Below, piece by piece: positions 1 to 20,734 of a stretch of DNA of 64,000 nucleotides; positions within the stretch are counted from its first letter, which is position 1; every line of letters starts with the position of its first letter. Position numbers and translations under genes: made by a program. This DNA is from Thunnus maccoyii (taxonomy: Eukaryota; Chordata; Actinopteri; Scombriformes; Scombridae): positions 27,097,647 to 27,161,646 of the forward strand of contig NC_056547.1 of the NCBI RefSeq assembly GCF_910596095.1, written 5' to 3'. Below the pieces are notes generated by a model that was not told the origin of the DNA, did no database searches, and saw only the letters and a list, made by a program, of their open reading frames with translations.

Positions 1-105
1 GAGGATGACCTGGGTCTTATTGGGGTCATCAGAGTCACCTTCACCATCAGCCTTCACCATCACCACCTCCCCCATGGACACTGTGACCTCGTCAGTGGTC
101 GCCAT
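1..105 (-). CDS. gmeb1: gmeb1, first coding exon (partial, runs off the left edge)
   Basis: Reading the minus strand from the ATG at 105-103 gives 35 codons, open to the window edge. They start MATTDEVTVSMGEVVMVKAD and end with KTQVIL. This acidic N-terminus with a KTQVIL block resembles vertebrate GMEB1 (glucocorticoid modulatory element-binding protein 1), a nuclear SAND-domain DNA-binding protein. GMEB2 has a less similar N-terminus. The SAND domain would lie on later exons outside the window. Upstream of the ATG there are possible acceptor AGs (121-122 and 110-111 on the plus strand), and a TATATAAAAG string lies at about 140-149 on the minus strand. The leader could therefore be spliced from the GC-richer region near 1-1.5 kb or start locally. 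Human GMEB1 lies near RAB42 and SNHG12, which supports the call. The assignment rests on 35 residues plus synteny. Confidence 0.72.
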   Translation of the reverse strand, partial: MATTDEVTVSMGEVVMVKADGEGDSDDPNKTQVIL

Positions 106-979
106 CACGCTCAGAGTAGACTAGAATGGAGGCCCACTTTTATATAGCTATCCGGGAGTTTGTTCATCTGAAATGGATGGATATATAATATTAAAACATG
201 CAATGAAAGATGGATTAAAGTCAAATTTACCCTAACAATTCAACTGAGGCAAAATTAAGTGAGCCTGAAAACTGAGAAATACATTACACAAAGAAACACA
301 ACCCAAATCTGGTTTTAATAGCCTTCGTACCTTTAGATGGCTAGTTAGGTAGCTAATGTTACCTAATTAAACTGACAGTTTCAACCAAAGTGTAAAAATA
401 TACGTTAAATGCAAGCATGTTGGTTGAATAAAAAAAAAAGAAAAAAGTAATACAATTAGCGTTAAGAGTTGTTAGCCAAATTCTAACGTGGACAGAGCCA
501 TAAAACAAATTTCATTTAGAAATGTGTCATTTTATCGTTAACGTTGTCTTGGCAGCTGAGAAACACTTTACACCAACACTTAACTTACAATATGCTATTT
601 CCACACTGGGTTAATTGTTTCAGTAAAATTTCATTTTTCAAGAAAATGGTTCGCATTGCTCTTTTTCCATACCCAAGAACCAACTAATGCGAGCATTATT
701 ATTTAGGTTAATATGCAAAAATATTACTTTTAACGGTTCCGCAGTGTGCATATAGGGTTACATTTATCACGAGATCATAATGATCGGGAATTGTTTCTAT
801 GCCAGTGCAGCCTCACTTTTTAAACTGTCACATTTCAGAGCAGAGTGTAACATTAGCATATTGGGGAATATAAACTGCGCTTTTGCGTGCTTTATGGGGG
901 ATGCTAACTGACATGGTTTGAGTAGACCATTCACAGTTACACTGGAGCTAAATCCATCCGTACAGTTGCAGCTAAATTA

Positions 980-6650: not shown

Positions 6651-9219
6651 TCAGCAGTGGCAGCTCTTTTCAGCGGTCGCAGCAGCTAGTTCCTCTTCGT
6701 CCTCAGCCGGGTAGAGGACCTTGGCGGTGAGGCCGCTCTTCACCCCGTCCCAGCCGTCGCGGGTAACGATCTCCCCCATCTTCATCAGCTCGTAGATGTC
6801 TCTGGTCAGCAGCTCGAAGGCCCGGTCCACGTTGCTGTTGCACTTGGCTGACGTCTCCACATAGCGGATGCCCAGCTCGGCCGCGAGCTGTTCCGCCTCG
6901 TCCCGGCTCACCTTACGATCCTTGTTGAGATCGCTCTTGTGGCCGATGAGGATGTAGACCATGTGATGAGGCAGGATGTGCTCACTCACCTCCTTGTGCC
7001 ATTCCCTCACATGGTCAAAGGTCTTGCGATTGGTGAGATCAAAGACTAGCAGCCCCCCCACAGAGTTACGGTAGTATGATGTTGTGATGGACCTGGTGGG
7101 TAGACAGATTGATGACATGTTAGTAATTCAAGGCAAAACGATCTTGACTTAGCATTTCTGAACATCTTGGAAAATTTAATGAACACATGACTTGCTATCA
7201 AAGGCTTTCCACTATCCTGAAACCACTGTAATTAAGCTTTAGACCTGCTTTTCTCTAGTCTCAAGTCAGTTGAGACAAAGCAAGTTTCAAGTCCTTATCC
7301 AACCTCAAGTGATACAAGAAAAGCCCAAGTCAAGTCTCACATCAGTTAAGACAAGTCCAAGTCAAGTCTCAAGTCTTGTCGAGATAAGTCTCTAGTCTGT
7401 TCTGAAGTCAGTCGAGACAAGTGTTAGTCAAGTATCAAATCAGTAGCGGCAAGTCCAAATACAGTCTAAGGTTTTGTCAAAGGAAATCAATTTTCACATC
7501 ATTCAGGACAGGTCACAAGACAAGTCAAGTCACAAGGCTTCATAAGCAGCTTGCTGGTCCAGCAGCAAGTCTGACCACTAAGCTAGCGACTAAAAAGTCC
7601 CTTTAATGCATAGGTATAATAATTAAATATTCCGTGTGTGGCCATGCAAGTCTCATCTGCCTTGTGTCTTACCTATTTATTTTGTTCTGGGAGGTCAAAA
7701 CCTGAGACTTGAATGTTTCTGAGTTGAAGTCTCAAGTCATGTCTTTAAAGAGCAAAGTCTCAAAGTAAAATAATGTGCAAGTTGAGTCACATGACCTCAT
7801 TTTTGTGACTCAAATCTGTCTCAACACAGCTCTGATAAGATCCATATTCTCCTTCACCATACTCATAAGCAACCAGAACTTACTCAAAATGACACACACT
7901 GCCAGGATGATTGCACTGTTTTCAATAGATTTAATGTTTGGCTGTCCACATAGGAAAGTAGACCAACGCTTTGTGAATTGTGTATGTTTTCTGTGTCCCG
8001 CCTCCTTTAAGCACTGACCATGTACAGTACAAGACATTGCCTCAAAATGTCAAAAATGCAGGAGCTGCCTTTAGGTCTTCATCCCTTCAGTTAATATAGT
8101 GGTTTGGTGGTGTATATTACATTGCCTTGTTGGGGATGAATTATGGCACTGAATTGAAATGATTTCAATTACCACAAACCAGATCGTAAACACTGGGTCC
8201 TCTGGGGCCCCTAAACATCTAGGGCCCCAGAGTTGTTGCCTGCTTTGGCCTAGCCTTTACACACATACAGTACATACACATGCCCTGATCCGTGCAAATG
8301 GTGGCTTTAAAAATTGCTGATTGATTTCACAAATGCTTGTCATAGTCAGATCCATTAAGGCAGAAGTGAAAGACTCGAGTGTGGTGAAGCCTGAAGGAAA
8401 ACACCCTCTGAAGCTCACGCTTCAAAAGGGAAAGCAGATCTAAAAGCGGAGCTGCTTCTCCAGACAGAGAAATGCTTTATAGGAAATAATCCATGACAGC
8501 AGAAACACATGAGACAGAACAAGCAACAGGGCAAATGAATGCAAAAAAACAAAACAAGATTTAGATTTAGAGTTGTCATCTTAGTGTTGCCCTGAGCCTG
8601 TGGAGTCTGTGAGTATCTCAGGGAATCAAACTGGGGCCTAAATATGAGGAGGCTGCCCATCATCCATGAATGAATGCAATGATGCAACTCGATATATAGG
8701 CTACTGTTTTTACACGGGCCAGGGCATCATACAGTAAGATCGAGGCCTTTGTAGCCTAATCTTCCCCTGACCCTTTTCTCCACTGTCTGCACTAACTTCA
8801 TTACATCACAATGAGGGCGGAAATGGCTTGCATTTAATTCAGAGGTTTATATATTCAAAAAGCAGCCAAACACGACAGCGATGTGAGGCCTCTCCATTAT
8901 TTAACGTCAAATCCACTCGGTTGAGAATGATCGTCATATTCTAATTCAGAAACAGTTTGTTTTTTTGTTTTTTTAATAAAAGCAACATTTCTTCTGTTTC
9001 ATACCTGAATCGTTCCTGGCCAGCAGTGTCCCAGAGCTGAAGCTTGATTTTCACCCCGGGCTCGATATCAAGCGAGCGGGCATAAAAATCCACCCCGACC
9101 GTCGGATCCGCCACATCGCTGTAAATTCCGTCCGTGAAGCGCTTCAGCAACGACGACTTCCCCACTGTTGAATCCCCGAGTAAAATGATTCTGAACTGGT
9201 ATTGCCACAAAATATCCAT
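6651..9219 (-). CDS. rab42: rab42, Rab-family small GTPase (two exons)
   Basis: The coding exons are 9219-9005 (215 nt) and 7092-6651 (442 nt), with a donor GTATGA and an acceptor CACCAG. They encode 218 aa, which as I recall is the length of human RAB42. Visible GTPase motifs are the P-loop GDSTVGKS (residues 15-22), effector loop DPTVGVDF (38-45), WDTAGQE (63-69), a GHKSDL G4 motif (122-127) and ETSAK G5 (151-155). The C-terminal CHC (216-218) is the double-cysteine geranylgeranylation signal that anchors Rabs to vesicle membranes. The [18 protein letters not shown] and WHKEV segments fit RAB42 better than RAB39A/B. The switch II region reads SITTSYYRN, with Thr where relatives usually have Arg. 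I chose the MDILWQ start because it aligns with the family. The same frame stays open about 49 codons upstream through a CA repeat and a GCA (Ala) run, probably 5' UTR. The intron is 1.9 kb. Effectors are not evident from the sequence. Confidence 0.93.
7255..7790. repeat. Degenerate CAAGTC-rich repeat in the rab42 intron
   Basis: Dozens of copies of CAAGTC or AAGTCTCAAGTC, interspersed with CAGTYGAGACAAG, fill about 500 bp of the intron. The pattern is imperfect, resembling a decayed satellite of the kind common in teleost introns. Confidence 0.75.
8200..8232. repeat. GC-rich inverted repeat (hairpin)
   Basis: CTCTGGGGCCCCT and AGGGCCCCAGAG form arms of about 12 bp around an 8-nt loop, conspicuous in an AT-rich intron. 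It may be a transposon or SINE remnant, and no transcript context is visible. Confidence 0.7.
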
Positions 9220-9245
9220 GGCATGACTAGAGGGGGATACCAGCG

Positions 9246-9247
<2 letters not shown>

Positions 9248-9279
<32 letters not shown>
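9248..9279 (+). repeat. (GT)n microsatellite just upstream of the rab42 start
   Basis: An uninterrupted run of about 15 GT units begins 29 bp 5' of the rab42 ATG (minus strand), so it would be (CA)n in the mRNA leader. A (CTG)8-like run follows at about 9318-9343. Confidence 0.95.
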
Positions 9280-9280
<1 letters not shown>

Positions 9281-9379
9281 AAACAAAGCCCTGTGCGCGG
9301 CGTGTTTACATGAAGCCCGGCTGCTGCTGCTGCTGCTGCTGCTGGAGCACAGAGCGACCGCAGCACTCGTGATAGATTT

Positions 9380-10045
9380 ACCTATGCTATGCTACACGGG
9401 TTATCACTACTATAAAACCTGCTGCAGCAGTGAATGAGGCAATTGTATGTTGTGAAAGAGTCAGAGATAAGCCTTAGCGGGATAGTATGAGCCGTAAGAA
9501 AACAGAATTAAGCTTTTCGTAGCTGTATAAGCTCTATTACACATAAGTCAGCTGCTTATTTTTCCAGTAGGAATGTCAACGTTAATTGGTAGCTTTAAAA
9601 CAGGCACATGCATACAGGGAGGCTTTTCTCAACCTTGTGTGAAATTCTAGCACTACTTGAATAGTGTCGCCATGGCCATGCAAGAGCAATATTTCGCAAC
9701 TGTTTATTTTAAGTATGACACTGCACTGTTATCTCAAAGCCACAAAGCGTCAGGAAGTAGGTTGCTGTCCGTGGTTCTGAAGTAGGTTAAAGGCTTCAGT
9801 TAAACTACAGCAATGGCCTATTGAATGTACAGTATATTTAAGTCTGTATACATTAAATTCTGCTTTGTATTTCGCCATGAAAACTGGGCGTTAAGTGAAA
9901 TATCAAAATCTCTATATTTGTTTTAACCTATGAGTGAATAAACCAACGTGGCTTTCTAAAACTCCTTTCGAACTACACATCCCGTCATGCAAGTGGACTA
10001 TGTGAGTTCTGCAGGCCAATCAGCAGGCTGCTGCTCGGCGCTAGC
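9380..10045. other. Intergenic spacer between the divergent rab42 and snoRNA host gene
   Basis: Separates two divergent transcription units. It should contain the rab42 promoter and the upstream part of the host promoter. No gene is seen. Confidence 0.5.
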
Positions 10046-10046
10046 G

Positions 10047-10053
10047 TATATAA
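10047..10053 (+). promoter_or_regulatory. TATA box and 5'TOP start of the snoRNA host gene
   Basis: TATATAA at 10047-10053 is followed by a pyrimidine tract beginning CTCTCTTTTCCGCCTCTT at about 10065. A C within a pyrimidine run as transcription start is the terminal oligopyrimidine (TOP) arrangement of ribosomal-protein and snoRNA host genes. The exact start is inferred from the TATA spacing. Confidence 0.65.
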
Positions 10054-10930
10054 CAGCACGAGACTCTCTTTTCCGCCTCTTCGCTCTAAAGTCTTCGATG
10101 AGGAGGGAGTGGAGCCGGCAGAGAGTTTCGGTGAGGCCTTAGCTTCTCTTGTGTTTTGACTCGAAAGTAACATTTACATTTGTATTAGTTTGTTACACTT
10201 TGCTTTTATGGCTTTTGAAGACTGGGAGTTATTAATGTTTTCGCGAAATTGTTGGTTAGTCGGGACAATACAAGCTAACGTTTGCTAATTTATGCTACAG
10301 TAGTCATGAGGGCTCATGTACGTTAATGCTTTAATATAATTAACACCAGCATTACATTTTATGAAATAAGCCTGCATTGCGCGGGCTTGTTTTGCATTAA
10401 AGTTAATGTTTGACATGTTTAAGTTGGGTTGAACGCGCCATGTAACGTTAGCTTCATATTAGCTGAATGCGTATGAACCACGTGGCGTGGTCTCTGTCAA
10501 CCCTTCCATGAGAAAAAATACTTAGCAAATGCACCTTCAGGAAGACTAATTTTAAGTCAACACTAATGAGTTTTGAAGCTGAAGTATCTCCTCCCGGAGA
10601 ACTTAACTAGGCGATGCCCTCAAGTGCTTCATTATTTTTTGGACTCCGTAGAATTGCAATAATGTGGAGCACTAAAACGTTAATTTCGTGTAAGTTAGTT
10701 GACCTGGTGACATTACTTTTTGGGAAGCTTTAGTTTGTAATGCGTTCTACCCCTTTCTTAAAAGTACACTTTATAACACGTTTATTTTCATCTAATGACA
10801 TATGAGCCTTGTAAAGCATGCATTGACTAACGTTACCTTAATTTTCTCTTTCAGAAGCAAACAGTAATCGGGAGTGCAGTCTGTCGTCTTTGCCATGGAC
10901 ATCAGTATAGCGCACAAGTAAGTGTTTTCC

Positions 10931-11082
10931 TGGACCTTTATAACCGCTGATTTTTCTTCAATAGGCACCTATCGAAGCCGTTCATGCTCTCATGTAGCAG
11001 TGAACGGTCAACAGGATGCCGAGATGAACACTTTCACCGACGGTCGCTGTTCAGTTTGAAAATAACTGCTCCAGCAACATTT
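10931..11082 (+). ncRNA. Candidate H/ACA snoRNA (host intron 2)
   Basis: The 5' hairpin has a perfect 7-bp stem (CCGTTCA with TGAACGG). It is followed by ACAGGA, which fits the H-box consensus ANANNA. A second hairpin (TGAAC with GTTCA; lower pairing TGC with GCA) precedes ACA at 11077-11079, close to the expected three nucleotides before the 3' end. The 5' boundary is uncertain. I could not assign the uridine target. Confidence 0.6.
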
Positions 11083-11274
11083 AGGGGAAGGACATTTGGA
11101 CAAAATCATTGGGTTAATGACTGACCAAGCCTATAAGAATGATCAATGTCTTAACAGTTTACTCCTGTCTTTCTGCAGGTTTTGGATAATGTTGAAGCTG
11201 GAGGGTCAAAAGATGAAATGGACCACATCACATGCAGGTAACTTCACCATCCACATCTTAAATACCAACATTCC

Positions 11275-11342
11275 TGGCTGTGATGACAAACTTGCCCTCA
11301 CTGAGATCAGTCTTGATTGAGACATTTATTTTACTGAGCCAC
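11275..11342 (+). ncRNA. C/D box snoRNA (host intron 3), predicted 18S guide
   Basis: C box GTGATGA (11280-11286), D box CTGA (11334-11337), D' CTGA (11301-11304) and a C'-like TGATTGA near 11314-11320 are flanked by a short terminal stem (GGC with GCC). The guide before D', CAAACTTGCCCTC, pairs 12 of 13 nt with the 18S segment GAGGGCAAGTCTG, just 5' of the universal GUGCCAGCAGCCGCGG. The fifth nucleotide upstream of D' selects the second G of GAGGGC counted within GGG's first half, which by my count is human Gm601, a known site that I recall as a SNORD103 target. The segment before the D box shows no evident target. Confidence 0.88.
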
Positions 11343-11502
11343 ACTTGCTAAAATGAAGTTTTTAAGGATGTAACAACAGATTTTTAAAACCTGACATTTC
11401 TGCTCCCTTTTTAGGTGATCCTCATGGCTGACCAAAAATGGACTGGATGAGGATGCCTCATGTCAAGGTAGATTTTTATTCAGATTAACTTGAGTCCACA
11501 TT

Positions 11503-11674
11503 GCAGCATGCCATCCTAAGGACCGGAGCTTATTCATAGCTCTAGGTTCTCCAAGTGCATGCTAGATAATGGGGTGGTCTTTGACTGTTGTGGCCCCTTC
11601 TGCCATAAGCAGCCACTCAACTGTCCTACAGTCCTGTTAGTACAGCAGTCAAAAGTAATTGACATGCTACAAAC
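11503..11674 (+). ncRNA. Candidate H/ACA snoRNA (host intron 4)
   Basis: The first hairpin is closed by AGCATGC with GCATGCT. It has an inner pairing of AGGACC with GGTTCT (one G-U pair) and an upper stem of GAGC with GCTC. The H box AGATAA (11564-11569) follows immediately. The second hairpin includes TTTGACTG with CAGTCAAA. ACA at 11669-11671 is followed by three nucleotides, as expected. At about 170 nt it is longer than the usual 130 nt. The target is not assigned. Confidence 0.75.
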
Positions 11675-11817
11675 ATGTTTAGTGAATCTAATAGAATTTA
11701 TTTCTTGTAGGTATAAATCTGCCCAGGTTCTTCAGGCTGACCTTGGGGCTGCGTGGGTTCTCCATATTCCTGGTCTGACGGTATGTAAACACAATTATCA
11801 CAAATGGCTTTATAAAA

Positions 11818-11888
11818 CTGATCCATGATGACCACTTACTATAATGAGGACTGTTGGATGAAGCTTGCGGATATGGGACTGAGATCAG
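11818..11888 (+). ncRNA. C/D box snoRNA (host intron 5), predicted 28S guide
   Basis: C box TGATGA (11826-11831) and D box CTGA (11879-11882) are enclosed by a 6-bp terminal stem (CTGATC with GATCAG). The element before the D box, TGCGGATATGGG, is fully complementary over 12 nt to CCCAUAUCCGCA in 28S rRNA, the conserved segment just 5' of GCAGGUCUCCAAGG. The D+5 rule predicts 2'-O-methylation of the A after CCC. The rRNA sequence is recalled, so the match should be confirmed. Confidence 0.88.
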
Positions 11889-12167
11889 CCTTACACTTAA
11901 TGTGTTCTGAGAATGCTCTTGAATTGCACTTAATGGGTTTTTTGTTTCTCCAGGTCCAGTGGTGTGTTGGCGTCAAAGACTGGGTGAACTGCTGCAGGCG
12001 GTCCACAGTAAAGTGGCTGTGCATATGCCAACATCAGAGTTCTTCACTTAACTCTGAAGCATAAGCATGTTTTGATGTGGGAGTAACAAGTTTCTCAATC
12101 TTTCCAGTCAGTAACTGCAGATGCAGTCATATTGTCAAATGTATAGTGTTTCACTGTCATTGAATGT

Positions 12168-12173
12168 AATAAA
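12168..12173 (+). terminator. Poly(A) signal of the snoRNA host gene
   Basis: AATAAA on the plus strand in the last host exon. The transcript end is expected 10-30 nt downstream, meeting the 3' end of ctps1. Confidence 0.7.
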
Positions 12174-12203
12174 CTGACAAAACAACTTATTGGAATCCCT
12201 CGT

Positions 12204-12209
12204 TTTATT
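12204..12209 (-). terminator. Poly(A) signal of ctps1
   Basis: TTTATT on the plus strand reads AATAAA on the minus strand, about 440 bp past the ctps1 stop codon. It implies a short 3' UTR (about 12190-12651) that converges with the snoRNA host gene. Confidence 0.65.
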
Positions 12210-12651
12210 CCATCTTACACTTTTTCAAGGAAAATTAAACATGTTTTTTGCATAAGCTGAAAGTTTTTTAGCTCCATGTAACAGTAATTACAATAAGGCC
12301 ACATAGTACAGCTGTCAATGTGTACAAAGTTTTTGATAGTGGTACTGGCATCACAGAGGCAGCCAAATATCAATTCCTGAGCCTCAGTATGAAGATTCAG
12401 ACTACATGTAAAAGCAACAATTCTCCAAGTTCATCCAGGACTGGAACTCCAAAAACAGACAGCTTGTTATAGTCAGTACCATATCACAGAAAAATCTGCC
12501 CTGATCAGTGGTCCAACATCATTTCAACTCCAGTTTTGTCTGCAACATAAGGGAGAGGGGAAAGTGGTACTAACTTATTGTGCAAAGGACACTTTAATTA
12601 AAGTGATCAACATTAAGTGAAACAATTGTGTAAAACTTTGTACCTCTGAAG

Positions 12652-20734
<8,083 letters not shown>

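Follow-up and report, generated by a model that had tools for sequence, protein, structure and literature searches.

Which guide RNAs does the snoRNA host gene at 10064 to 12190 carry, and how far does its cargo depart from that of human SNHG12? An earlier note on the window (the whole stretch of DNA analyzed, 64 kb in length) had placed alternating H/ACA and C/D candidates, left unnamed, in introns 2 to 5, named the host as SNHG12, and described its cargo as a "rearranged set of guides." The window belongs to contig C15 of a 782-Mb assembly in 54 contigs, and the genome-wide searches reported here cover this one fish genome. We consider it highly likely that the gene is a fish orthologue of SNHG12 with four intronic guides, in which a SNORD103-type RNA stands in place of SNORA61 relative to amniotes. 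The host itself has the following parts.

10064..12190, + strand: SNHG12-like non-coding host gene with GT-AG splice sites and six predicted exons
10047..10088, + strand: putative promoter and TOP-like start read from sequence (TATATAA at 10047, then a pyrimidine-rich run)
10069-10130, 10855-10917, and 11179-11237, + strand: predicted host exons 1 to 3 (62, 63, and 59 nt)
11415-11467, 11711-11780, and 11954-12190, + strand: predicted host exons 4 to 6 (53, 70, and 237 nt)
12168..12173, + strand: putative polyadenylation signal AATAAA, the sole AATAAA on this strand in 10000-12190

Exons and introns were predicted from sequence (five GT-AG introns and six exons, spanning 10069-12190), and the longest Met-start ORF in the joined predicted exons encodes 62 aa. 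The sequence agrees with a putative 5'TOP-like start and with exons that may be non-coding. A DNA search of the genome with the host sequence returned a single match, the host itself. Introns 2 to 5 each contain one candidate guide.

10961..11097, + strand: SNORA16 (H/ACA) in intron 2 (10918-11178); Rfam RF00190, 87.9 bits, cut-off 35
11273..11343, + strand: SNORD103/SNORD85-type C/D RNA in intron 3 (11238-11414); Rfam RF00188, 44.9 bits
11504..11633, + strand: SNORA44 (H/ACA) in intron 4 (11468-11710); Rfam RF00405, 62.0 bits, cut-off 55
11817..11890, + strand: SNORD99 (C/D) in intron 5 (11781-11953); Rfam RF00608, 72.5 bits, cut-off 60

The order H/ACA, C/D, H/ACA, C/D proposed for these introns was thus borne out as SNORA16, a SNORD103-type RNA, SNORA44, and SNORD99. 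The covariance-model check suggested at the same time passed for three guides, which exceeded their Rfam gathering cut-offs, and narrowly failed for the intron 3 RNA, at 44.9 versus 45 bits. Across the 64 kb, a total of four matches reached the gathering cut-offs: U11, SNORA16, SNORA44, and SNORD99. The three snoRNAs above cut-off also have the boxes of their classes, namely H box AGATGA at 11022 and ACA at 11092 in SNORA16, H box AGATAA at 11564 and ACA at 11628 in SNORA44, and C box AUGAUGA at 11825 and D box CUGA at 11879 in SNORD99. A strict C/D pattern scan of both strands of the 64 kb gave four matches, two of which are the intron 3 and intron 5 RNAs. The snoRNA ends in introns 2 to 5 lie 81, 71, 77, and 63 nt upstream of the 3' splice sites. 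For intron 1, the best match in a relaxed Rfam search of 9900-12400 was an implausible CRISPR-repeat model (E 0.03). In the genome-wide searches, the host locus was the best match to both RF00190 (87.9 bits) and RF00405 (62.0 bits). A second match to the SNORA16 model was found on contig C7 (L028:1501-1632) with 36.2 bits versus the cut-off of 35, and weak matches on C18 and C6 in the SNORA16 and SNORA44 searches scored 24.7 and 24.6 bits.

The human SNHG12 cargo comprises SNORA44, SNORA61, SNORA16A, and SNORD99 (PMC5223416; also PMC7154078), as the earlier note had correctly stated (three H/ACA and one C/D snoRNA). Since the SNORA16, SNORA44, and SNORD99 families are common to both genes, the orthology proposed for the host is supported, and the gene at 10064-12190 is very probably fish SNHG12, judging from its sequence. 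In human SNHG12 the order is SNORA16A, SNORA44, SNORA61, SNORD99, so the three shared guides follow one another in the same order in fish and human. Calling the set "rearranged" was therefore too strong, because three of the four human families are kept in the same order and only one exchange is seen. Two neighbors of the host were compared with the human locus.

2165-2298, - strand: U11 minor-spliceosome snRNA gene (Rfam, 116 bits), beside a Ras-family gene
12652-13116, - strand: exon of CTP synthase 1 (ctps1; E 4.1e-5), directly downstream of the host and convergent with it

Ras-family exons lie upstream of the host (ORFs at 6651-7127 and 8941-9381) in a gene that we take to be rab42. Human SNHG12 presumably sits in an RNU11/RAB42 neighborhood, and the nearby Ras-family gene and U11 fit the SNHG12 identity. 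Downstream, the human neighbor is, we assume, TRNAU1AP, unlike ctps1 in fish. At the window edge, positions 1-120 (- strand) resemble the start of gmeb1 when read by eye.

The human-type set includes SNORA61, and this family was absent from the fish locus at E<=10 in the relaxed Rfam search of 9900-12400. Genome-wide, RF00420 gave a single match, on C9, with 24 bits (E 7.5) against a cut-off of 74, and 42 of 106,788 candidates were scored; we treated the C9 match as noise. These figures leave some room for a SNORA61 that is present in fish and escaped the search through divergence or sparse sampling, in which case only the location of SNORD103 would differ from amniotes, the more so as a fish SNORA61 to serve as a positive control is missing. 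The same kind of search clearly recovers SNORA16 and SNORA44, however, and even at E<=10 nothing appeared at the locus itself, so that we regard a hidden SNORA61 as rather unlikely, though the strongest of the alternatives. The preferred reading, in which a SNORD103-type guide occupies the host in place of SNORA61, turns on the RNA in intron 3.

This RNA scored 44.9 bits against RF00188 (E 1.3e-7 in the relaxed search of 9900-12400), which is 0.1 bit below the gathering cut-off of 45, and for that reason we call it SNORD103-type. It was the best match in the genome-wide RF00188 search, with a whole-model E value of 9.4e-6. Its boxes are C GUGAUGA at 11280, D' CUGA at 11301, C' at 11314, and D CUGA at 11334, and the C/D pattern scan found a terminal stem. 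Agreement with the SNORD103 consensus covers the D' guide and its near flanks, while the 3' half differs and is poorly alignable. What the RNA would modify was approached through pairing with rRNA, using as target a fragment of 18S rRNA from the same genome (L031, matched by RF01960 across 888 nt).

11290..11299, + strand: D' guide of the SNORD103-type RNA, with 10 bp to 18S rRNA; N+5 falls on fish 18S G573

Guide positions 2-11 form 10 Watson-Crick base pairs with 18S rRNA of the same genome. Opposite G573, which is the central base of the GGG in TTGGAGGGCAAG, lies the guide base five positions upstream of D'. We take fish G573 to be the counterpart of human G601. The intron 3 RNA thus has as class features of SNORD103 both the C/D boxes and a D' guide to 18S G573. 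Reported targets are 18S G601 for SNORD103 and 28S A2774 for SNORD99 (PMC8881200). A run of 10 beginning at guide positions 1-4 on the same 888-nt part of 18S was obtained with 8 of 2,000 shuffled guides; neither the D guide of the SNORD103-type RNA nor the SNORD99 guide gave a run of 8 from guide positions 1-4 on this part. The 18S pattern had 0 matches in viral contigs. Exact 18S rRNA matches occur at C4:153-189, C37:49227-49263, and C46:126-162, no more than about 320 bases from a contig end (for C46, as judged from its low coordinates), and this placement suggests that the rDNA arrays are cut in the assembly.

Because the RNA lies 0.1 bit under the cut-off and its 3' half departs from the consensus, a C/D RNA could have evolved independently and converged on the same 18S target, without being a descendant of SNORD103. 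Convergence would explain why the RNA agrees best with SNORD103 across its constrained 5' region (C box, guide, and D') and why the 3' half aligns poorly. Yet identity to SNORD103 extends slightly past the guide in both directions (GAUGACA on the 5' side and CACUGAGA-CA on the 3' side), and the E value of 9.4e-6 comes from the whole model in a genome-wide search; we therefore consider convergence improbable and shared descent with SNORD103 probable. That the C/D element has decayed or arose by chance, so that only three snoRNAs are made, would agree with a score just below the curated cut-off but is very improbable given its four boxes, its terminal stem, a guide that pairs with 18S rRNA of the same genome, and a distance of 71 nt to the 3' splice site, similar to the 63 nt of SNORD99.

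Whether a SNORD103-type RNA with shared descent also resides in a fish Pumilio gene bears directly on a change of host. A PUF-domain search of the genome gave a total of 10 matches in two genes, one on C15, identified as pum1 because Pumilio 1 was the best PDB match of one exon, and one on C17, identified as pum2 (best match, Pumilio 2). Fish pum1 lies on the same chromosome as the window, at 17.9 Mb and separated from it by 9.2 Mb. Rfam scans at E<=1 recovered no SNORD103 in 59 kb of the pum1 region (8 matches, all to other families) or in 54 kb of the pum2 region (1 match, to another family), and the exact guide ACTTGCCCTC, present once in the window, is absent from both scanned regions on either strand. 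Applied to 60 kb of the window as a positive control, the identical search recovered SNORD103 at E 3.1e-6, where it ranked fifth among 12 matches at E<=1. No copy was thus found in fish pum1 or pum2 that would correspond to PUM1 as the host of chicken SNORD103. Upstream of pum1 is a WD40 exon for which U5-40K was the fourth-ranked match, behind a pair of designed Tako8 proteins and an entry named "WD-40 repeat protein."

The genome-wide RF00188 search returned five matches at E<=10, headed by the copy in the window. The second, C18:13248487 (39.8 bits), was rejected as a SNORD103 copy since it is without the 10-nt guide; it adjoins exons that we read by eye as transportin, and SNORD41 presumably resides in TNPO2. 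C/D-like RNAs at L003:1501-1576 and near L008:7370, which also neighbor exons that look like transportin by eye, are, we assume, SNORD41-like, and translated traces suggest two related copies. The third, C2:23796337 (27.5 bits), near Ig-like ORFs read by eye, was rejected because no CUGA precedes its 3' stem, and the matches on C9 and C11, at about 23 bits, were taken as chance. Genome-wide, a C box followed by the guide core and D' occurred in five places including the window. The other four had no Rfam match at E<=0.05; at L035, which is among these four, a crude test picked out a D box and a 5-bp stem. In the four whole-genome family searches (RF00188, RF00420, RF00190, and RF00405), 42 to 57 of 72,000 to 107,000 first-look candidates were scored, so absence elsewhere in the genome is no proof. 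Given a SNORD103-type RNA in an SNHG12 intron and none found in the scanned regions of fish pum1 and pum2, fish and amniotes probably carry the guide for one 18S methylation in different host genes.

The spliced host RNA would serve to deliver four intronic guide snoRNAs, each intron lariat being opened after splicing and trimmed down to a snoRNP. SNORA16 and SNORA44 would then guide pseudouridylation, SNORD99 would guide 2'-O-methylation of 28S rRNA, and the D' element of the intron 3 RNA would direct methylation at G573 of 18S rRNA, which probably corresponds to human G601. We infer from these features that the host is expressed, spliced, and processed in this way, that the methylation takes place, and that the intron 3 RNA descends from the same SNORD103 gene. 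Relative to amniotes, the cargo would differ by one exchange, with SNORD103 in SNHG12 here and in introns of PUM1 in chicken and, as a gene listing suggests, presumably also in human. It is possible that this exchange is lineage-wide and involves two hosts on one chromosome, with ray-finned fish having the 18S Gm601 guide in SNHG12, amniotes having it in PUM1, and SNORA61 having entered or stayed in SNHG12 on the tetrapod side only; we put this forward tentatively, at slightly less than an even chance. Under such an exchange, fish would seem to be without SNORD103 in cut-off-based annotation because the RNA falls 0.1 bit short. If true, the case would offer a clean, datable host change of a ribosome-guide RNA, with the rRNA target kept and the host's other guides unmoved, and it would illustrate how strict use of a family threshold can hide a guide that is likely real. 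It would also predict that fish 18S G573 is methylated via an snhg12 intron and that the SNORA61 target pseudouridine is missing or otherwise guided in fish.

In comparison with known systems, human SNHG12 resembles the fish gene as a non-coding host of intronic snoRNAs that include the SNORA16, SNORA44, and SNORD99 families, and differs in that the fish gene has a SNORD103-type guide between SNORA16 and SNORA44, while SNORA61 was undetected in fish. In chicken, the EST host CK986810, which we infer to be SNHG12, contains ACA61 in intron 3 and HBII-420 (SNORD99) in intron 4 (PMC2653536). The tables of that source, in the portion available, name only ACA61 and HBII-420 under CK986810 (2 occurrences) and assign the ACA44-type function to other hosts. 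On this portion, SNORD99 alone is common to CK986810 and the fish host; the chicken gene differs in carrying ACA61, with SNORA16 and SNORA44 unlisted for it.

SNORD103 and SNORD85 of PUM1 share with the fish RNA a C, D', C', D layout and a guide for 18S G601, whereas the fish RNA has another host and a divergent 3' half. Human SNORD85, SNORD103A, and SNORD103B lie, we assume, within PUM1 introns. All three are grouped with PUM1 for one SNP at 1p35.2 (PMC9152224), and SNORD85 is an isoform of SNORD103 (PMC3349704). Chicken U103/HBII-251 (SNORD103) occurs in PUM1 introns 9, 12, and 21 (PMC2653536), three isoforms compared with the one SNORD103-type copy found in fish. Among the papers listed in literature searches on SNORD103/U103, on PUM1, on fish SNHG12, on fish SNORD99, SNORA16, and SNORA44, and on teleost snoRNA mobility, none on this case was seen, and the locus may be included in an additional file of PMC3349704 that covers C/D genes from several fish. 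In the text of PMC3511168 (Hoeppner and Poole 2012), the words zebrafish, teleost, SNORD103, and SNORA61 occur 0 times, and the case is unnamed there. The same work treats snoRNA movement between hosts as established and describes it by a "constrained drift" model. The fish locus would be one more instance of this known mobility, in which either state could be older, and as under constrained drift the guide would be retained while the host gene changes.
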